From NCBI GenBank assembly GCA_001899145.1, contig MKVF01000021.1, positions 62,001-126,000 on the forward strand: a stretch of DNA of 64,000 nucleotides. Reading direction: 5' to 3'. Below are positions 5,706-32,457 of this stretch, piece by piece. The DNA is from Flavobacteriia bacterium 40-80 (GTDB lineage: Bacteria; Bacteroidota; Bacteroidia; Flavobacteriales_D; Crocinitomicaceae). The position numbers were made by a program, and so were the translations under genes. Each line of letters starts with the position of its first letter. Position 1 is the stretch's first letter. The notes under the pieces are model-generated. The model was not told the DNA's origin. It saw nothing but the letters and a program-made list of their open reading frames with translations, and ran no database searches.

Positions 5706-6557
5706 ATGAGAATATCACCAATTATAGAAGTGGGCGAATTACTGAAAATTCATAAAGATTCCGAGGTGATGATTTTTGATGCAAGTAATAGTAAAAACGC
5801 TAAAGTGAACTACGAAACAGAGCATCTTGAAGGTGCGGTTTTTGTTGACTTAAATACTCAATTAGCAGACATTAAAAGTGACTTTTCAGAAGGAGGACGA
5901 CATCCATTGCCCAGAATAGAAACTTTTGCTGAAATTTTGACCGATCTAGGAATTTCAAAAAACAAGCATATTGTAATTTACGATGACAATAATGGCTCAA
6001 ATGCTTCTGCAAGATTTTGGTGGATGCTAAAATCAGCTGGACACAAAAAGGTTCAAGTTTTAAACGGAGGACTAAGTCAGGCTAAAGGAAATAATTTTCC
6101 TTTGAGTGCAAAGACGGAAATTATTAAAAGAGCTTCTGAACCATATCAAATTGACGAATGGAAATTACCTACAATCGAAATAAACGAGGTAGAAAATGTG
6201 TCGCAAAACCCGAATTATTTGATAGTTGATGTTCGAGACAAAGAACGATATGAAGGAAAATTTGAACCAATTGATTTAATTGCAGGACACATTCCTGGAG
6301 CAATAAATGTCCCATTTACAGAAAATTTAGACCAGATTGGATTATTCCTTAAACCAGACGAATTAAGAAATAAGTATATAACACTATTTGGTGAAATTAA
6401 GGCTGAAAATATTATTATCCATTGTGGCTCAGGAGTAACGGCTTGCCATACTTTATTAGCATTAGACTATGCAGGAATCGAAACACCCAAATTATATGTT
6501 GGTTCGTGGAGTGAATGGAGCAGAAACAATAAAATGATAGAAAAAACGAACGCCTGA
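5706..6557 (+). CDS. Sulfurtransferase with two rhodanese domains
   Basis: A 283-residue enzyme of the thiosulfate/3-mercaptopyruvate sulfurtransferase family. It has two tandem rhodanese domains: an inactive N-terminal one (EGAVFVDLN, GRHPLPRIETFAEIL, IVIYDD) and a catalytic C-terminal one (YLIVDVRDKERYEG, GHIPGAINVPF). The active-site loop is CGSGVTAC with the persulfide cysteine at residue 240. That loop is of the CGSGVTA type usually linked with 3-mercaptopyruvate use, so SseA-like activity is more likely than strict rhodanese activity. It lacks a signal peptide. It is a single-gene unit. Confidence 0.88.
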   Translation: MRISPIIEVGELLKIHKDSEVMIFDASNSKNAKVNYETEHLEGAVFVDLNTQLADIKSDFSEGGRHPLPRIETFAEILTDLGISKNKHIVIYDDNNGSNASARFWWMLKSAGHKKVQVLNGGLSQAKGNNFPLSAKTEIIKRASEPYQIDEWKLPTIEINEVENVSQNPNYLIVDVRDKERYEGKFEPIDLIAGHIPGAINVPFTENLDQIGLFLKPDELRNKYITLFGEIKAENIIIHCGSGVTACHTLLALDYAGIETPKLYVGSWSEWSRNNKMIEKTNA

Positions 6558-6680
6558 CACGGATTTTTCGTCAGGCGGTCTGACGTGCAAACTTGAAGTT
6601 TTGTACTTTTACTTTAGTAATAAATTGGAACTTTGTGTCCGAAACCCGCCCGAACGCAAAGCCCTAAATCGTTATCTGCC
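6551..6680 (+). repeat. Spacer unit R5 with inverted repeat
   Basis: CGCCTGAC (6551-6558) pairs with GTCAGGCG (6570-6577), overlapping the end of the sulfurtransferase gene. Then come GTGCAAACTTG (6585), TTGGAACTTTGTG (6625-6637) and AACCCGCCCGAACGCAAAGCC-type sequence, shared with the spacer at 1173-1220, and CGTTATCTGCC. No T run follows the stem, so I prefer a spacer palindrome to a terminator. Confidence 0.5.
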
Positions 6681-6686
6681 ATTTTA

Positions 6687-7436
6687 ATGAACGACACTGC
6701 TCAAAATAAAATACATATCGAAAGAACAATGGGAATGTTCGTTGGACAGTTTAACGACAACTCTTTGCATAAACATTATGCTTTACAAATCAGTGTCGCT
6801 TCGCAAGGAAAATTTGAAATTACAGGCGAGAAAAACAACCAAAATTCTTACTCAACTTGTTTCATTAACAGCAATGTTCAACACCAATTTAAAAGTAATG
6901 AAACATCTTTGATTATTCTTATAAACCCAATTAGCAGTATTGGTCATCAACTATACAACAAATACAGAAATATACAGATTACGAGTTTGAATGAAAACTT
7001 TGAACAGCTTGTAGAAATTTTTGATGATTATTTGCAAAATGGCTCTGATTTTACCAATTTGGCTCATAACATTAACGACTATTTCGTAAACTTCAAATGT
7101 CAATGTGAACTTGAGAATCACTTTGAAGACGAAAGAATTTACAAAGCCATTCAATATTTGGAACAAAATTTTGACCGAATTGTGTCGCTTGAAGAAATTT
7201 CGAGTGTTTGCTTTCTTTCCGAAACACGGTTTTTACATCTTTTCAAAGAGAAAACCAGTCTGAATTTCAGACGATACCAACTTTGGAACAAACTCATAAA
7301 ATCATTAATCTGCTTAAAAAAACAATCCATTACCGAAACCGCACATCAGTTTGGATTTACAGATAGTTCTCATTACAGCAGAACATTCAAAGAAACTTTT
7401 GGACTTTCGCCTAAATTTTTGTCATCGTTAAAATAG
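6687..7436 (+). CDS. AraC family transcriptional regulator
   Basis: A regulator of about 249 residues with an N-terminal cupin-like sensor (SLHKHYALQISVA, then VQHQFKSNE) and a C-terminal AraC double helix-turn-helix. The first HTH is VSLEEISSVCFLSETRFLHLF. The second is the canonical ITETAHQFGFTDSSHYSRTF followed by FGLSPKFL. I place the start at ATG 6687 because the longer frame from TTG 6633 runs through the shared spacer sequence. It precedes a transglutaminase-like gene by 59 bp. The target is unknown. Confidence 0.85.
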   Translation: MNDTAQNKIHIERTMGMFVGQFNDNSLHKHYALQISVASQGKFEITGEKNNQNSYSTCFINSNVQHQFKSNETSLIILINPISSIGHQLYNKYRNIQITSLNENFEQLVEIFDDYLQNGSDFTNLAHNINDYFVNFKCQCELENHFEDERIYKAIQYLEQNFDRIVSLEEISSVCFLSETRFLHLFKEKTSLNFRRYQLWNKLIKSLICLKKQSITETAHQFGFTDSSHYSRTFKETFGLSPKFLSSLK

Positions 7437-7495: not shown

Positions 7496-8197
7496 ATGAA
7501 CAATTACCTTAAAGAAACTAAAGTTCTTGACTATTCTCACAATTCAATTCAGAAATTAGTAAAGGATAAAGAATGGAATCAACTTGACAGTATTTCAAGG
7601 ATAAAAGCCATTTATAATTTTGTAAGAGATGAAATAAAATTCGGTTATAATATTTCCGATAACATTTCAGCATCAGAAATATTAAAAGAAGGATATGGAC
7701 AATGCAACACAAAAGCCACATTGCTTATGGCCTTGCTGAGAGCTGCGAAAATACCAAATCGCATCCACGGTTTTACGATTGATAAAGCGTTACAAAAAGG
7801 AGCGATTACGGGAATTTGGTATAAACTTTCACCTAAAAATATTCTGCATAGCTGGGTTGAAATATTGGTCAACGAACAATGGTATTTTTTAGAGGGTGTG
7901 ATTTTGGATAAACCATACTTAACTAAACTACAAGAAAAAAACAGCGATTGTAAAACGACCTTTTGTGGCTACGGTGCATATACCGATAACTTCGAAAATC
8001 CACCAATAGAATGGAATCTAAATAGTACATTCATTCAGGACAAAGGAATCAATCAGGATTTTGGTTTATTCGATACACCTGACGAATTTTACGCAAAACA
8101 TCAACAAAAATTAAATTTCCTTGAGAAGTTTATTTTTCAAAATATTGTTAGACACACGATGAATAAAAACGTTGAGAAGATAAGAAACGGCAGGTAA
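7496..8197 (+). CDS. Transglutaminase-like cysteine peptidase family protein
   Basis: A 233-residue protein with a transglutaminase core. The catalytic cysteine lies in GYGQCNTKATLLMALLRAA and the histidine in ILHSWVEILVNEQWYFLEG, so the papain-like dyad is intact. A matching aspartate should lie shortly after (EGVILDKPYL). No signal peptide is present. Bacterial members of this fold act as peptidases or amidases more often than as protein cross-linkers. Its TAA stop (8195-8197) is the first three bases of the 12-bp attachment-site repeat of the genomic island, so the gene survives island insertion unchanged. Confidence 0.8.
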   Translation: MNNYLKETKVLDYSHNSIQKLVKDKEWNQLDSISRIKAIYNFVRDEIKFGYNISDNISASEILKEGYGQCNTKATLLMALLRAAKIPNRIHGFTIDKALQKGAITGIWYKLSPKNILHSWVEILVNEQWYFLEGVILDKPYLTKLQEKNSDCKTTFCGYGAYTDNFENPPIEWNLNSTFIQDKGINQDFGLFDTPDEFYAKHQQKLNFLEKFIFQNIVRHTMNKNVEKIRNGR

Positions 8198-8206
8198 CAT
8201 TGTATT
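8195..8206 (+). repeat. Left attachment-site core (attL)
   Basis: TAACATTGTATT, identical to 32266-32277. It overlaps the stop codon of the transglutaminase gene and corresponds to the first 12 bases of a cassette-type spacer. Confidence 0.8.
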
Positions 8207-8266
8207 ATTAAAAGTCTTATTATAACACATTGATTTTCAGTATAATTAATTACTACTTTTAAGACT

Positions 8267-11537: not shown

Positions 11538-11568
11538 ATTATGCCGTAGTCTTTTGTCTTTTTTTCGA

Positions 11569-12466
11569 GCGTGGGCATCAGCAAGCCGCCTACCTTTGCT
11601 GTCTTTTTTTTATTTATTGACCGGGTACGGATAACCTATTCTTCTTTTATTCAATGAAAATCATTCAACTATTTATCACTTCAATTTCAATAAAAATTCA
11701 CTTCAGAATAGTTCAATTGAAAACGGAAATTTGTTTTTGAGCGTAGGCAACGGGGCAAACAATCCGCAGGGATAAAAAGGCATATCCAAAATTGTTAGCG
11801 GTGGGAAAAAGCAAGGGTATGCGGAACGCAATACGCTTGCTGTGCGGTGCTGAGGCGGGTGCAAATCAAGCGAAGTGTAATGCAATGGAAAAACGCTGTT
11901 TGCACCTGCCACAAGCACATTGGCAAACTACTACTTATGCCTTTTTATTCCCTGCACCGCTGAAATGGGTGGTGGGGAGCGTGGGAAAAAGCGTGTGCAA
12001 GGCGTTGGAAAGAAAAAATACGGCTTCCGATACCCGAAAAATATAAGCGTTGGGATTGTGCGTAGGGATATTTTTTCGGGGAGCGGACTATGGCATTGGC
12101 TATTTTACATAATGTTATTATAGGACATTTTTGCGTTGGCATAGCCGTCTATAAGCGTGGGGAAAATGTACTATAATGCCACATTATGTAACTTAGCTTC
12201 CGCCGATTTGCATACTGGCATAAACGGAACGGTGGTGGTGGTTGGAGTGAAGTGTCTTTTTGCTTTGTTTTTTTTGCATTGGTACAGCTCTATGCAACCG
12301 CAGGAACGAGGATTGCAATGTGCTGTTGAGCGTTGGCAAAAAACAACGCAAAAAGTATGACAGTTGCAAACGGTGGCAATGCCATAGAAGACAGGCTTAG
12401 CGTTGGCTTTGTGCGGTTGGGGTCTGGCTTAAGCCGTATTTTTTCTGTGCGTGGGCAGAGCGTGGG
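11569..12466 (+). repeat. Strand-biased GCGTDGG motif cluster
   Basis: GCGTGGG, GCGTTGG or GCGTAGG occurs at 11569, 11741, 11979, 12002, 12047, 12060, 12133, 12155, 12330, 12400, 12449 and 12460. All 12 are on the + strand and I found none on the other. Short ORFs that run through here have low-complexity, Gly/Val/Lys-rich translations and no start signals, so I do not call them genes. Confidence 0.5.
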
Positions 12467-12533
12467 CAAAAGGGTTCTGTCAATTCAAATTTTATACGCT
12501 GTTTATTCTACTCTGTTTTGCATCTGATTGAAA

Positions 12534-12770
12534 GGATAAGTAGGATAACTATATTTTTAGAAAACATATTTTTTGTATTTCGTAGAAATACAAAAACTGA
12601 TTTATCGGAATTATTGAAAGCAAAATAATGAAGTATAAGTGTCGGTTTGCTTTATTTCTGTTTGTTTTGGCTTGTTTTTTATCGCAGATAAAAAATAAAA
12701 AATCTTTTTGCCCGAAAAAGGTTATCCTACTTATCCCCTTAAACTAATGTAATGAGGTGCAGAATGCACC
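12534..12770. repeat. Structured repeat, copy 1
   Basis: It is bounded by GGATAAGTAGGATAAC (12534-12549) and its complement GTTATCCTACTTATCC (12721-12736), 203 bp end to end. Inside are a 12-bp hairpin (12570-12581/12585-12596), the box CTGATTTATCGG, a second stem (GAAAGCAAA with TTTGCTTT) and a third (12672-12683/12687-12698). A GGTGC/GCACC hairpin (12756-12770) follows. Copy 2 has the same layout at identical spacing, 330 bp downstream. Confidence 0.75.
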
Positions 12771-12863
12771 GAATAAATTTCAAAAAGCGAAGCGTATTTG
12801 AATGAACAATTTTTGTTAATTCTATACTGCTATTATAGTAATGCAAACTAAAGCAAAAGAAAA

Positions 12864-13100
12864 GGATAAGTAGGATAACTAAATTTCAGCAAAAGAATAT
12901 TTTTTTATTCCTGCGGAATAAAAAAACTGATTTATCGGGCTGATAAGGTGCAAAACGGTAAACCGTAGGTTTCCGTTTGCACTAAATAGATATATTTTGG
13001 CTTGTTTTTTTTCGTCAGAAAAAAACAAAAAATGTTTCTGCCCAAAAATGCTTATCCTACTTATCCACTTCAACCAATGAAAAAAGGTGCAAAATGCACC
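12864..13100. repeat. Structured repeat, copy 2
   Basis: The boundaries are GGATAAGTAGGATAAC (12864-12879) and CTTATCCTACTTATCC (13051-13066), again 203 bp. The first hairpin (12900-12911/12915-12926) differs from copy 1 by two compensatory base-pair changes. The middle stem is longer (GTGCAAAACGG with CCGTTTGCAC) and the third is kept with one bulge (13002-13028). The GGTGC/GCACC hairpin (13086-13100) sits at the 3' end of the VapE-type gene and may also act as its terminator. Confidence 0.75.
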
Positions 13101-13101
13101 T

Positions 13102-15285
13102 TTAAGAATTTCCAAATCTAAATGTAGTTTGCTCCGGTGGTTTGGGTTGTTCCGGTGGTGGTTCTTTTTCCCTGTTTTTACTATCCACTTCATCCCAACT
13201 CAATTCACGAACGGCATACACATAACCAGTCTTTTTTGATAATCGCAGATAAGCGTGTTTCTTTAATGCTTTGCCCAACTTCATTACTGTACCGTCTGTA
13301 ATATTCAATTTGGCTTTATCGGCTAATTTGGCTGCGATTTGTGAGGTGTTGAGAAATGCGTTTGCAGTATCTCTATCGGCTATTTCAAACCAGGTTAATA
13401 GCAATTCTTCTTCAGGACTTCGGAGTTGGTATTGCTCGTTGTTTTGGTTAATCTCTTTGATCTCTTCCTGGTTAAACCAATATCTGAAATTGTCTTTATA
13501 CAATTGCTTTGCCTGAGCATAAGCCAAATTAATGTCAATGTTGTGGGTGTACTCGATATGTTCCACTTCAAAGCACAAGAAACGGCGTGAGCCAGTTGTA
13601 TCATTTAGAAATTGGGCTGTGTTTACACTGCCTGCAAATGATGCCCTGCGTGGCAGGGTTTCATTATTGTGTCCGTATGCTTTACGCATACGGATATGCG
13701 TTTTTGTGATGAGCTCTTTTAGCGTACCGATTTCGGTACGGTTTAGGTTTTCTAATTCATCCAAATTAATCAACATACATTCTGCCAAATGGATTAAAGT
13801 GTCTTTATTGTTAGGATTGATTGTTCCCGAAAACATATAATCTTTCAAAGGTTTTGGGATGAGCTTTTCTATCCACGTTGTTTTTCCTACGCCTTGCTTA
13901 CCACTAAATACAATTACAGTTTGATTGATGGCTTTTTCATTGGTAACACAAGCCACCATTGCTACAAACCATTTTTTGAAACACACCTGCCATAAATCCT
14001 GCTTTGTCGTTGTTATGGTATTGGCAAGGTTCAGAATGTGGTCGGTTTCATCTTCATTGGTTTTTAAGTCATCAAAGTAATCTTTAAACGGGTCGTATTG
14101 TTCACAAAAATCAGAACGTAACAAATTGCGTAAGGTATTAATATTGCATTTTACTTTGGCTTTCATAATCTCACGCAGGATGGAGTTTTCAACGAAATCC
14201 GTTACTGGTTTCCAAAGCGTAGCTTTGGATGCCTTGTACTCTAATTTTCCGGTAACTACGTTATAGCGAAAGCTATAACGGTAGTTTAAGAAATTCTCCA
14301 ACTTGTCTATAAAACTTGGTCTTTCTTCTTCCTCGTCTGTATCATCTTCAGATGATTTATTGCTTTTGGATTGCTCGGAAATTTCGCCATTTGGCGAAAT
14401 AGATAAGTTGCTTTTGTTGTGTTCTACTACGTTTTTATAAGCACTGTTTACGGTTGCTGTTACTTCCTGCAAATTGTAGTTGTAATCAGAAAGGATATAG
14501 CCCATTGCCGCAGGCAATGGTACACCTTTACGATTGAGATTGCAAGCCAACAAATGCACAAAGTTGTTTCTATTGCCATTGATGTAGCTTTCTTTTTTCT
14601 CTGTAAACCTTACGCAATGTTCATATAATGGTAAATAATCGTTGCTGAATTTCTCGGTAGCAAAACCATTGCAAGCAATGGTTGTAAGCTCGTTGATAGC
14701 TTCTGAATTTTGTTTTTCCTCTCCTAAATCCTCTCCAAAGGAGAGGACTTTGAAAATGCTTGCATTTTCGTTCAGAAATAAATCCGTGTCGTAAGACACG
14801 AAGCAAAGGCGTGTAACGTCTTTGCCCGATTTGTCTATTGGCAAAGCCAATAGTTCTTCATAGTATTTTTGCAGTTTTAGAAAGGCTTCTTTGTGGTTTT
14901 CCTGCGATGAATTGACTTGTACAAATATCTTTAAACCATTTCCCGAAGGACTGATAAATGCACTGAAGGTATATTGGTTCTGAATTGCCAATGCTTTAGC
15001 ATTGGTTAATTGTTCTGTAGAAAGTTTATCAATATCCAACACAACCATTTGCGTGTAAGTTGTAATAAATTCTAATTTCCGTCCGCCCTTGAAAGAAGCC
15101 GAAGGCGTGAAAGCGGGCAAAGATTTCTTTGCCCTTTCGTATGCCTCCATTTTGCTTTCTGCCAAAGATTTCCGCAGGTATTTTATCACGTTAATATACT
15201 TACCTGTTTTAATGTCGTTTAATACCTCAATGATTTTTTGGTTTTGCACCACTTCATTGAAGTTTTGAAATATACTTACCACCAT
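13102..15285 (-). CDS. VapE-type primase-helicase of the island
   Basis: A 727-residue protein with a BT4734/BF3469-like N-terminal domain (about 1-180; QMVVLDIDKL, AFISPSGNGLKIFVQV), a linker with an acidic stretch, and a C-terminal VapE/D5-like helicase domain. Walker A is GKQGVGKTTW at 462-471 and Walker B is ECMLINLDELENL. The AGSVNTAQFLNDTTGSRRF stretch gives sensor and arginine-finger-like residues. The N-terminal DIDK and SGNGLK motifs match archaeo-eukaryotic primase-like domains, so it probably initiates element replication. It sits beside the structured repeats, a likely origin, and is preceded by a small HTH gene. Confidence 0.82.
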   Translation of the reverse strand: MVVSIFQNFNEVVQNQKIIEVLNDIKTGKYINVIKYLRKSLAESKMEAYERAKKSLPAFTPSASFKGGRKLEFITTYTQMVVLDIDKLSTEQLTNAKALAIQNQYTFSAFISPSGNGLKIFVQVNSSQENHKEAFLKLQKYYEELLALPIDKSGKDVTRLCFVSYDTDLFLNENASIFKVLSFGEDLGEEKQNSEAINELTTIACNGFATEKFSNDYLPLYEHCVRFTEKKESYINGNRNNFVHLLACNLNRKGVPLPAAMGYILSDYNYNLQEVTATVNSAYKNVVEHNKSNLSISPNGEISEQSKSNKSSEDDTDEEEERPSFIDKLENFLNYRYSFRYNVVTGKLEYKASKATLWKPVTDFVENSILREIMKAKVKCNINTLRNLLRSDFCEQYDPFKDYFDDLKTNEDETDHILNLANTITTTKQDLWQVCFKKWFVAMVACVTNEKAINQTVIVFSGKQGVGKTTWIEKLIPKPLKDYMFSGTINPNNKDTLIHLAECMLINLDELENLNRTEIGTLKELITKTHIRMRKAYGHNNETLPRRASFAGSVNTAQFLNDTTGSRRFLCFEVEHIEYTHNIDINLAYAQAKQLYKDNFRYWFNQEEIKEINQNNEQYQLRSPEEELLLTWFEIADRDTANAFLNTSQIAAKLADKAKLNITDGTVMKLGKALKKHAYLRLSKKTGYVYAVRELSWDEVDSKNREKEPPPEQPKPPEQTTFRFGNS
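14716..14756. repeat. Dispersed repeat inside a coding region
   Basis: It has CCTCTCCTAAATCC, then CCAAAGGAGAGGACTTTGAA, and forms a small hairpin. A diverged copy with the same two ends lies at 15694-15791. Here it is in frame within the VapE-type gene and encodes the FGEDLGEEKQ linker, so it is tolerated in an interdomain region. Confidence 0.5.
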
Positions 15286-15324: not shown

Positions 15325-15612
15325 TTATTTCTTTGAAAAAGCCTTGTTATAATGTTCGTTTAATAACTTCTCTACATCTGAAAGTTTGTAGTAAATTTTG
15401 TTTCCGACCTGTGAGAATGAAATACGCCCTTCATCTCTCCAGGTTTGTGCGGTGCGTTTGGAAATTTTCATCAGGATAAGAAACTCCTGATTGTCTAAGA
15501 ATGTATCTTTCTTAGGTTCGTTTTTGGCGTTAAGACGTGTGGTGATTTCGTCTAATCTTGTAACCAATTCTGTGTATTGGTCTTTGGATAAAATAATTGC
15601 TTCCATTTTCAA
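15325..15612 (-). CDS. Helix-turn-helix (excisionase-like) protein
   Basis: A 95-residue protein with an N-terminal coiled-coil-like helix (QYTELVTRLDEITTRLN) and a C-terminal MerR/excisionase-type winged helix: FLILMKISKRTAQTWRDEGR, then ISFSQVGNKIYYKLSDVEKLL. This HTH_17 form is standard in Bacteroidota integrative elements, where it may act as excisionase or regulator. It lies 39 bp upstream of the VapE-type gene on the same strand and is likely co-transcribed with it. Confidence 0.8.
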   Translation of the reverse strand: MKMEAIILSKDQYTELVTRLDEITTRLNAKNEPKKDTFLDNQEFLILMKISKRTAQTWRDEGRISFSQVGNKIYYKLSDVEKLLNEHYNKAFSKK

Positions 15613-15794: not shown

Positions 15795-16697
15795 TTAAAG
15801 GAGCTTATCTATATCTATTCTTTTGTGGGGTTTGGGACGTTTGTCCGTTTTGGATGGCTTGAGCATTGTAGCAATACTGTCGGGACTTAAATCCCGTCCG
15901 TCCTTATCCGTAAAGCTGTTTACAATAACCGCAATAATGTCATTCACATTGCCATCAATAATGGGTTTGCCATCGGCAAACAATTCTCTGTGCAACTGGT
16001 AAAATATATCCACCAATTGATTTATGTTGCAGTTGATTTTCAGTTTGTTGAATGGAATACCTTCCGCATTTTCCCTCATTTGTTCTTTAGAAAATTCATC
16101 GGTTAAACGGATTAAATGCTGAATTTGGTCAATTTCTTTCTGACATTGATCAGAATAATCGGGTAATTTTGGATTAATAAAATCTATGCTGGCTTGTTCG
16201 TAATCGAACTTTTCATTAGTCAAAAACATAATTTTCTCTGTGTAGTCTTTCATTGCATTCACTTTACTTTTTACTTCCCTGAATGAAAAATATCTTTCCT
16301 CACATTCCGCATTGATGTATTGCATTGGCGGCTTGATATGTGTATGACGGTTTCTTAAAATCTCTAATTCTTTTCGCTTGCTTTCTATGATGGTGTAGCA
16401 TTTCATCATGCGCCCACGACTACTTGTACTTACAAATAATTCTTCATTTTCAGAGATTAGTTTTTCAAATTTATTGAGCCATTTAACCGGGTTTTCTACA
16501 TAATCACAGTGATGTGAAAAAAAGTCAGGCAATTTTGCATATGGAAGCTTAATAATTTTATTAATCAATTCTTTACAATAAGCTTCGTTATCCATTACAC
16601 TTTCTTGTAAAACATCAAATAAAGTATTGTTTAATTGCTCCTTAGATACAGAAGTTACCTCAGTAAATTGAACGAAGTTTTTTAATTTTGTAAACAT
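15795..16697 (-). CDS. Conserved hypothetical protein of integrative elements
   Basis: A 300-residue, mostly helical, charged protein. The C-terminal 90 residues (INQLVDIFYQLHRELFADGK, then FTDKDGRDLSPDSIATMLKP) follow a pattern seen in Bacteroidota conjugative and mobilizable elements, somewhat like the RteC C-terminal region, where it looks like a DNA-binding domain. The N-terminal part is not recognised. There are no membrane segments. It lies at the boundary between core and cargo genes, 15 bp from the VIT gene on the same strand. Function unknown; a regulatory role is inferred only from the C-terminal pattern. Confidence 0.6.
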   Translation of the reverse strand: MFTKLKNFVQFTEVTSVSKEQLNNTLFDVLQESVMDNEAYCKELINKIIKLPYAKLPDFFSHHCDYVENPVKWLNKFEKLISENEELFVSTSSRGRMMKCYTIIESKRKELEILRNRHTHIKPPMQYINAECEERYFSFREVKSKVNAMKDYTEKIMFLTNEKFDYEQASIDFINPKLPDYSDQCQKEIDQIQHLIRLTDEFSKEQMRENAEGIPFNKLKINCNINQLVDIFYQLHRELFADGKPIIDGNVNDIIAVIVNSFTDKDGRDLSPDSIATMLKPSKTDKRPKPHKRIDIDKLL

Positions 16698-30811: not shown

Positions 30812-32029
30812 TTAGTTGATGTATTGTTCAACTGCTTTATCCAACTCCTCGCTGATTACCTTGGCGTAAATCTGCGTGATGCCAATATCTGAATGGTCTA
30901 AGAGTTTTGAAACATATTCTATCCGCATTCCATTATTTAAAGCATTGGTAGCAAAAGTATGACGGCTTAAATGGAAGGAAAGTGAAAAAGGCAATTCCAT
31001 ATCCTTACCCAATCTTCGCAATTTCTGACCACACAAAATATTTTTAGCATTGATGATGTGTGCCTGGTATTCTTCGTTGGCTTCAAACAACTCTACATCT
31101 TCAATTATCGGGAAAACAAAATCCGATGGTTGCGAAAATTCGGTTTTGTATTGGTGCAAAATACCCAATGCTACCTGTCCGATTTTAAAAGTGTGGGTTC
31201 TTCTGGTTTTACGTATTTCCTTGGTGATGCGTTGTTCTTTCTCGTTAAAGTGTTCCCATTTCAGACTCACCACATCGCTAAAACGTAAACCGCCTGCATA
31301 CACCGCAAAAATGAACATATCTCTAAATATTTCGTCTTTTCCGGTATATTCAATTTTTAGGGTTCTTAGCTTTTCAATCTGCTCTTTGTTCAGATATAAA
31401 CGTTTGCCTTTATCTCTTTTTACTTTCACTTTTGAAAATGGATAAATAGCTTCTGAAATAATATCTTCCCTTTGTGCATCCCGAAACATAACCGATAAAA
31501 TCAGCAATGAATAATGTATCGTGGTGCCGCCATTTTTCAACGTATTGGAAAGATAGTTTACGTAGTCTTTCAACATTGTAACTGTAATATCATCGAAATA
31601 CACATCTCTATGCCCAACAAATTTTTCAAACTTAGCTACGTACTGTTTGTAGTTTTTATAAGTAGCAACCGATACCGTTCCTTTTATACGCTCACAACGG
31701 TTGTAAGCATATTCAAAGAAGTTTGCCATATCCTTACCCTTTATTGCTTCCTTTAGTTTTCTTGCTGATACAGATTGGCGTTTGCGTTCGTGGTCTGCTA
31801 CAGTTCCTTCAGCATCAGCAATTTTTTGAGAGAGAAAAGCATTCATCCTTGCACTATTTGGGTGGTTCTTTTTGATTTTCTGCTTTTCATCATCCCATTC
31901 TGTTTGCTTCAGCTTTACTCCTGTAGCTACAAATTTGGCTTTTCTATCCTTTATAACCCTTATGTATAAAGGACTATGACCTGTTTTATCTTCTTGATTT
32001 GTTCTAAGAACTAACTTAATTGATGCCAT
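30812..32029 (-). CDS. int: Tyrosine recombinase (integrase) of the island
   Basis: A protein of about 405 residues with the three domains of Bacteroidota element integrases: an N-terminal arm-binding domain (KLVLRTNQEDKTGHSPLYIR), a SAM-like core-binding domain (FFEYAYNRCERIKGTVSVAT to SVMFRDAQRE), and a C-terminal catalytic domain. Catalytic residues are visible in YAGGLRFSDVVSLKW (Arg), SFHLSRHTFAT (HxxR) and LLDHSDIGITQIYAK (His and the nucleophilic Tyr). I start at ATG 32029, where the family sequence begins; a longer frame reaches 32077. It starts 237 bp inside the right attachment site. Confidence 0.9.
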   Translation of the reverse strand: MASIKLVLRTNQEDKTGHSPLYIRVIKDRKAKFVATGVKLKQTEWDDEKQKIKKNHPNSARMNAFLSQKIADAEGTVADHERKRQSVSARKLKEAIKGKDMANFFEYAYNRCERIKGTVSVATYKNYKQYVAKFEKFVGHRDVYFDDITVTMLKDYVNYLSNTLKNGGTTIHYSLLILSVMFRDAQREDIISEAIYPFSKVKVKRDKGKRLYLNKEQIEKLRTLKIEYTGKDEIFRDMFIFAVYAGGLRFSDVVSLKWEHFNEKEQRITKEIRKTRRTHTFKIGQVALGILHQYKTEFSQPSDFVFPIIEDVELFEANEEYQAHIINAKNILCGQKLRRLGKDMELPFSLSFHLSRHTFATNALNNGMRIEYVSKLLDHSDIGITQIYAKVISEELDKAVEQYIN

Positions 32030-32048
32030 AAAAAAAAGTATTAAGTTT

Positions 32049-32152
32049 GTTGTACTAAATAAATGAAACGAGTGCAATTTGATGAAACCCTTTATTTATC
32101 AGCTATTTCAAAGCGGTGCAACCTGATACAAAGATACAACATTTGGTACAAC
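32049..32152. promoter_or_regulatory. Candidate integrase arm-type sites, right end
   Basis: GTTGTAC (32049-32055), GATACAAC (32133-32140) and GGTACAAC (32145-32152) resemble the AAGTACAAC pair near the left end. They overlap the integrase promoter region, so the integrase may also control its own expression. Confidence 0.4.
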
Positions 32153-32265: not shown

Positions 32266-32277
32266 TAACATTGTATT
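32266..32277 (+). repeat. Right attachment-site core (attR)
   Basis: TAACATTGTATT, identical to 8195-8206. Sequence to its left (ACTTTTAA) complements the arm to the right of attL. Sequence to its right continues the cassette-type spacer. Confidence 0.8.
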
Positions 32278-32457
32278 GCCAAAAGCGTGGCTGAAAGTGC
32301 AATCCTCAACTTTTCTTCTATTCCGTAAAAACCATTTTTTATCTGCTTTAAAAAATGTAAATTAGTAAACAAAAAAATGGTTTTGTTTACTGCGGTGCTG
32401 AACTCAGCATTTGTACCTTAATTCCCCGGCCTTCGGCAATACCCGAAACGTTGTACG
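32266..32457 (+). repeat. Cassette-type spacer R6, split by the island
   Basis: It opens TAACATTGTATTGCCAAAAG. GTATTGCC (32273-32280) pairs with GGCAATAC (32435-32442). An inner 13-bp stem pairs AAAACCATTTTTT (32328-32340) with 32372-32384, and the unit ends near GTTGTAC (32450-32456). The nested-stem form matches the palindrome at 3052-3246. In the island-free state it would directly follow the transglutaminase stop. Confidence 0.65.

Follow-up and report, generated by a model that had tools for sequence, protein, structure and literature searches.

The crr site of satellite phage P4 consists of two long direct repeats and is bound by a fused primase-helicase. This site is named in PMC6092414, the available text of which describes the origins of PICIs from Gram-negative and Gram-positive hosts as lying immediately downstream of the initiator gene, with an AT-rich region between two sets of iterons. 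For SaPIs, the available text of PMC7581432 describes recognition of an iteron origin, directly downstream of the rep gene, by the C-terminal domain of Rep. According to the same text, the SCCmec Cch2 origin is an intergenic region that follows the helicase gene on its 3' side and contains direct repeats as well as inverted repeats able to form hairpins; binding was abolished when the direct repeats were deleted, but not when the inverted repeats were. No described origin was found for Bacteroidota VapE relatives in the literature searched, which excluded most subscription journals.

Here, a 64,000-nucleotide stretch of the genome of Flavobacteriia bacterium 40-80 (the window) was analysed, together with loci from other genomes (L numbers). 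The window contains a doubled noncoding element which, judged from sequence comparison and structure prediction, is most likely the replication origin of a VapE-encoding integrative mobile island, built on the PICI plan.

Anatomy of the doubled element

Two copies of the element, A (12531-12799) and B (12861-13129), are spaced by 330 bp; their alignable 269 nt are 72% identical without gaps. Each element is approximately 240 bp in length, and both lie 3' of a VapE-type primase-helicase gene (minus strand, 13102-15285). The left ends begin at 12534 and 12864 and the inverted right ends finish at 12736 and 13066. A preliminary description had given two copies 330 bp apart with inverted ends spanning 203 bp, and the coordinates of both copies agree with this. 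Each end comprises two tandem iterons (GGATAA), inverted at the opposite end, with an AT-rich core between them, giving four iterons per element in two inverted sets. The VapE gene has a GC content of 38%, compared with the lower values of the cores given below. The parts of the element are as follows.

12534-12548, plus strand: left iteron pair of copy A, GGATAA twice with a period of 9; outer arm of helix P1
12549-12721, no strand: AT-rich core of copy A, 25% GC, containing hairpins; proposed melting region (GC content, hairpin analysis)
12570-12596, plus strand: hairpin P2 of copy A
12597-12608, plus strand: small hairpin P3 of copy A; GATTTATCGG in 8 of 10 copies
12617-12653, plus strand: hairpin P4 of copy A, exchangeable central stem
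12672-12698, plus strand: hairpin P5 of copy A
12722-12736, minus strand: right iteron pair of copy A, inverted (TTATCC twice)
12756-12770, no strand: GGTGC/GCACC hairpin of copy A, with no T run after it
12864-12878, plus strand: left iteron pair of copy B
12879-13051, no strand: AT-rich core of copy B, 31% GC, containing hairpins P2 to P5
12900-12926, 12927-12938, 12947-12983 and 13003-13027: hairpins P2, P3, P4 and P5 of copy B
13052-13066, minus strand: right iteron pair of copy B, inverted
13083-13103, minus strand: terminator-like site at the VapE 3' end, formed by the GGTGC hairpin of copy B

The 14-mer GATAAGTAGGATAA occurs on the plus strand of the window at 12535 and 12865 only. In copy B, the last C of the left arm stands opposite another C, which costs the end helix one pair. 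The GGTGC/GCACC hairpin noted previously was recovered in both copies; the minus-strand form of the copy B hairpin is the sole terminator-like site in 12300-13300 (1 found vs 0.8 expected from shuffles, weak alone).

The VapE-type protein and the island

The annotated genes are given below.

13102-15285, minus strand: VapE-type primase-helicase, proposed initiator, with BT4734-like_N, a VapE-like domain and a C-terminal winged-helix-like part
15325-15612, minus strand: small HTH_17 protein, excisionase-like
15795-16697, minus strand: island protein kept in related islands, with no Pfam match at E 0.01
30812-32077, minus strand: tyrosine recombinase (integrase), likely of the island

The adjoining gene had been called VapE-type beforehand, and its VapE-like domain was matched in Pfam (2.9e-42). 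A weak profile match at positions 294-362 was to an arginine repressor (0.0013), a protein whose N-terminal part is a winged helix. BT4734-like proteins are treated as a family of archaeo-eukaryotic primases in the available text of PMC5862659. An AlphaFold2 model of VapE residues 325-727 (27 sequences, pLDDT 87.1) was used for the fold search; the full-length model (nine sequences) was poor, with a pLDDT of 48.3. VapE alignment A5 contained 27 of 34 sequences, seven with internal stops being excluded. The solved structure nearest to the C half of VapE was PriRep1 with dsDNA (7pds; Z 26.3, rmsd 4.3, 363 of 403 residues). The next structure scored Z 15.4, and the SaPI5 primase-helicase Z 13.2. 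The profile of VapE also matched 7pds_A, a molecule named 'Similar to D. nodosus vapE', at 2.3e-29.

The protein encoded at 15795-16697 may be RteC-like. Candidate attachment sites were seen at the likely island ends as similar 20-nt stretches at 8195-8214 and 32266-32285 (85%, E 0.25, weak); a second island in the same genome has a better candidate pair (90%, E 0.009). Repeats, presumably attC-like, lie between small unrelated genes, and a 374-aa integrase has sub-cutoff similarity to integron integrases (97 vs 265 bits), a model that also gave hits below its cut-off in 14 of 14 control genomes. The stretches concerned are 6550-6705 of the window, L010 11930-12080 and 12765-12920, and C21:429137-429946; a cassette array may thus surround both islands.

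Comparison with described origins

In the available text of PMC6092414 and PMC7581432, SaPI and PICI origins resemble the element in lying directly 3' of the initiator gene and in having two sets of short iterons around an AT-rich stretch. The initiator in these systems is a helicase, often with a fused primase (PMC6092414, PMC7581432, as available), and the C half of the window VapE is nearest to PriRep1 on dsDNA. Three features of PICI-type origins, namely the place 3' of the initiator, the plan of two iteron sets and a helicase of Pri-Rep type, were found in the window. Unlike SaPIs and PICIs, relatives of the window element occur in Bacteroidota hosts and are doubled in 3 of 10 islands. 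The element also differs from PICI origins, as described in the available text of the same two sources, in having several conserved core hairpins with an exchangeable central stem; hairpins and doubling together exceed the plan given there. The element likewise resembles the SCCmec Cch2 origin, as far as this is described in the available text of PMC7581432, in being intergenic, 3' of a helicase gene and composed of direct and inverted repeats; that origin has three iterons, whereas the window element has four in two inverted sets.

Relatives of the element

The second island of the same genome carries the same pair, at C21:448664 and 448992, and both members of this pair share 81% identity with copy A; all four copies in this genome are 3' of VapE. 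Scanning of bacterial genomes with VapE returned six close relatives (81-87% identical; two Chryseobacterium MAGs, Pedobacter, Parapedobacter, Paenimyroides and a Bacteroidetes MAG) and one distant match. The element was found 3' of VapE in five of the six contigs, as two copies in L019 and as one copy in each of the others; the sixth contig stops within VapE.

A covariance model built from the first ten copies was run on 395 Bacteroidota genomes, with few candidates scored per genome and stricter filters, such that weak copies can be missed. It matched the own genome and two further genomes, in both of which the element lies approximately 85 bp beyond the VapE match. A VapE search of 395 genomes, apparently the same draw, returned as the sole other relatives above 45% identity the same two genomes (65% and 61%). 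VapE relatives are widespread in Bacteroidota, being present at E 1e-40 or better in 27 of 385 genomes. Among viral contigs, scanning with the single VapE protein gave 23 stretches, none confirmed; scanning with alignment A4 gave 24 loci and added L077, whose VapE is 58% identical and which carries the element. The exact two-arm pattern had no match in viral contigs, and DNA similarity searches with the element gave no match in plasmids or phages.

In total, 13 copies were collected from 10 islands. The layout, which the preliminary description had proposed looking for in other Bacteroidota islands, recurs: the element lies 3' of VapE in all ten islands for which downstream DNA was available and in which VapE is uninterrupted and has 58% identity or more. 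Left out of the island counts were L005 to L008 (weak matches), L024 (contig ends inside VapE), L025 (30%, partial) and a second plasmid, H4. A broken VapE on a Flavobacterium plasmid (L026 8001-8707, NZ_CP110003.1; 79.5% identical over 32% of the query) is without the element. This plasmid was typed as non-mobilizable, yet carries a traM annotation. The VapE-type genes of L043, L044, L045, L047 and L050, from four genomes and one family, have one or two in-frame TGA codons, and are either pseudogenes or read in another code.

Iteron letters and the strict iteron test

Iterons of the GGATAA type are found where VapE is 81-87% identical to that of the window. The outer left-arm iteron is degenerate in L009_A, L019_A, L022 and L023. 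GTAAG repeats serve as iterons in L039, whose VapE is 65% identical to the window VapE. GGGTGTA iterons are found in L040 and L077; the VapEs of these two islands share 80% identity, and their identity to the window VapE is 58-61%. As read from these loci, the iteron letters change where VapE changes and the tandem-plus-inverted plan is constant.

Of 18 loci scanned 3' of VapE for plain inverted repeats, only five (L020, L023, L040, L046 and L048) scored above all 20 shuffles, and known elements such as those of L009 and L022 were missed. The scan was replaced by a strict iteron test: a 5-mer had to recur at a distance of 5-10 nt, and 30-320 nt away its reverse complement had to recur in the same manner, no more than 450 nt from the VapE stop. 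The criterion was written after two distant examples, L046 and L048, had been seen. L017, L064, L066 and L067 were excluded due to short downstream DNA.

The test was passed 3' of 17 of 34 VapE-type genes, compared with 0.16 expected from first-order Markov shuffles. Controls passed at the ends of 2 of 219 other ORFs (one place, two overlapping loci) and in 7 of 555 tiles, both control sets containing overlapping loci (L012 and the window). Applied by position in 27 loci, it was passed directly 3' of VapE in 13 of 27 cases, inside the gene in 1 of 81 and further on in 0 of 88. Among distant loci (VapE at most 44% identical), 11 of 26 passed, or 9 of 24 without L046 and L048; nine distant loci already viewed when the criterion was framed gave 0 of 9 on retest. 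The 17 failures are 15 of the 26 distant loci plus L022 and L023, in which the element is present with one arm degenerate.

Held-out viral contigs gave 0 passes in 20, many of them near-identical (L079, L092 and L093 were excluded for short downstream DNA). Of eight held-out viral proteins compared with Pfam, only those of L078 and L080 have a VapE domain, and both loci fail; the viral set therefore tests mainly other primase-helicases. The viral-contig outcome limits the layout claim to VapE-type genes from the scans of bacterial genomes, about half of which pass.

Hairpins, and the structured RNA alternative

Two compensatory changes reported previously in the first stem are correct: G12575-C12591 is replaced by T12905-A12921, and T12580-A12586 by C12910-G12916. 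The end helix and the P4 stem bear out the accompanying statement that structure rather than sequence is conserved; much of the sequence is nonetheless kept too (mean column identity 82%). Across ten copies from seven islands, 93.9% of 509 cells are pairing. Covariation in these ten copies was compared with shuffles, with a divided outcome. Double-change cells (19 vs 8.9 ± 2.5; 0 of 500 shuffles as high) and the covariation score (0.177 vs 0.126; 0 of 500) exceeded the shuffles, whereas pairs with a double change (7 vs 5.3; 81 of 500) and further pair types (22 vs 22.0; 325 of 500) did not, leaving two of five measures not above shuffles. Conservation of hairpin structure between copies is moderately supported by these alignments. 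Beyond the closest group, the hairpins are only partly kept: in L040 and L077, P4 keeps its position with different letters (GAATGCA/TGCATTC and AAGCAAA/TTTGCTT), and P5 is absent by eye.

The main rival of the origin reading is a structured RNA: a noncoding, multi-branched transcript of approximately 200 nt, closed by helix P1, that would be produced twice from the plus strand and would act on the island's replication or on cargo genes. The element has in common with the structured RNAs of mobile elements its compensatory stem changes, noncoding nature and place next to a mobile gene, and the excess of double-change cells over shuffles fits an RNA. The plus strand folded to -77.3 and the minus strand to -56.7, a difference of -20.6 that none of 150 column shuffles reached (mean -5.1, sd 3.8, lowest -15.0) and is not predicted by a pure double-strand binding site. 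In the fitted structure, 57 of 509 cells are G-U and 11 are A-C. With G-U pairs barred, however, the strands folded alike (-54.9 plus, -54.0 minus), so much of the asymmetry stems from fitting an RNA structure; as G-U and A-C cells then numbered 13 and 13, strand asymmetry was dropped as proof of RNA. A promoter-like match (10/12) on the plus strand at 12528-12555 overlaps the start of copy A, but promoter-like sites numbered 3 vs 2.6 in shuffles, from a consensus possibly ill-suited to Bacteroidota. On the plus strand, eight single copies gave interior fold z-scores of -2.8 to +0.2, P5 is missing from two islands as described above, and an RNA would leave the tandem repeats inside each arm unexplained. 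Unlike known structured RNAs, the element had no credible match among 4227 Rfam families at gathering or relaxed thresholds. An RNA of this kind is judged improbable. The paired structured RNAs suggested initially are possible and come second best, given the Rfam outcome, promoter-like sites at chance level and hairpins only partly kept.

P4 exists as two types, swapped between window copies A and B relative to L009 and L019. Window copy A is nearest to L009 copy A in P2 plus P3, P5 and the right end (92, 95 and 94%), while its P4 is nearest to L009 copy B (74%, vs 49% to copy A). Window copy B is nearest to L009 copy B in the left end and P2 plus P3 (94 and 90%), and to L009 copy A in P4 (77% vs 53%) and the right end (86% vs 77%). 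The same P4 swap is seen relative to L019; as the copies of L019 and L009 are nearly identical, a single event may underlie both. The pattern points to exchange between the two copies. A less probable reading is that the core hairpins work as a folded single strand, of plus-strand DNA or of RNA, and control or prime initiation at the doubled origin, with P4 as an exchangeable module distinguishing the copies. If so, a single primase-helicase would read both iterons and a folded strand in this class of origin.

Proposed initiation and remaining alternatives

The origin of replication suggested at the outset is well supported by the PICI-like place and plan, by iterons that differ with VapE and by a PriRep1-like predicted fold, and it draws further on recurrence of the layout at other VapE-type genes. 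Counting against it are the failure of 17 of 34 loci in the strict test, the 0 of 20 viral contigs and the broken plasmid VapE without the element. Under the origin reading, after excision of the island the C-terminal winged-helix-like part of VapE would bind the tandem iterons at each element end. Through the two inverted iteron sets, a pair of helicase rings would come to face one another on either side of the AT-rich core. The core would melt, and on the strands laid bare synthesis would be primed by the fused BT4734-type primase domain. Hairpins of the core would form once the strand is single, and may hold it open or act as priming signals. If the island does replicate from the element, the doubling may also have a role. 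The layout makes putative origins beside VapE-type genes findable by computer.

A transfer or packaging signal, either oriT or the cos/pac site of a phage satellite, is very improbable. Conserved noncoding palindromes in a mobile island, with an excisionase-like protein and a fused primase-helicase, would suit such a site. Against this, searches of 10 window proteins (Pfam, PHROGs) gave no relaxase or terminase match and no recognised packaging gene, the element follows VapE instead of a mobilisation gene, and the noncoding region at 11560-12480 is an equally good candidate; nothing in the analysis bears out the initial suggestion of such a signal. A MITE, a small non-autonomous transposable element inserted twice, would account for the inverted ends and four copies in one genome, but was rejected as scarcely credible because own-genome copies occur only beside VapE (four of four, 3' of the gene) with none at unrelated sites, while a DNA search of 99 genomes matched only four (the own genome and three with stretches of 25-54 nt) and the element ends diverge together with VapE. 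Autoregulation of VapE is unlikely because the sites follow the gene and the 14-mer iteron pair is nowhere else in the window.

Cargo site and adjoining noncoding region

Two further features adjoin copy A.

11560-12480, no strand: noncoding region that borders the cargo site on the left, carries GCGTTGGC-like repeats and is conserved in related islands
12481-12530, no strand: cargo site of approximately 50 bp, flanked by the noncoding region and copy A; empty in the window

All nine other islands have defence-like genes next to the element, on its VapE-distal side. These are similarity calls on selected ORFs, only selected cargo ORFs having been submitted to PADLOC.

L009: IetAS
L019: Pycsar cyclase and effector, RmrA-like
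L020: McrBC-like, PDC-S02
L021: type IIG-like RM, PDC-M38
L022: type II methylase, GHKL protein
L023: NsnAB
L039: fused RM enzyme, PDC-S56
L040: SspA/SspD, PbeA/PbeC
L077: type II RM set

A cargo site beside a putative origin offers a handle for finding new defence systems, and its occupation in all nine raises the question of why origin and defence travel together. The noncoding region at 11560-12480 had no DNA match in plasmids. It contains many same-direction GCGTTGGC/GCGTGGGCA-like repeats and is conserved in the window, L009, L019, L020 and the covered part of L021, its last approximately 300 nt being nearly invariant by eye.
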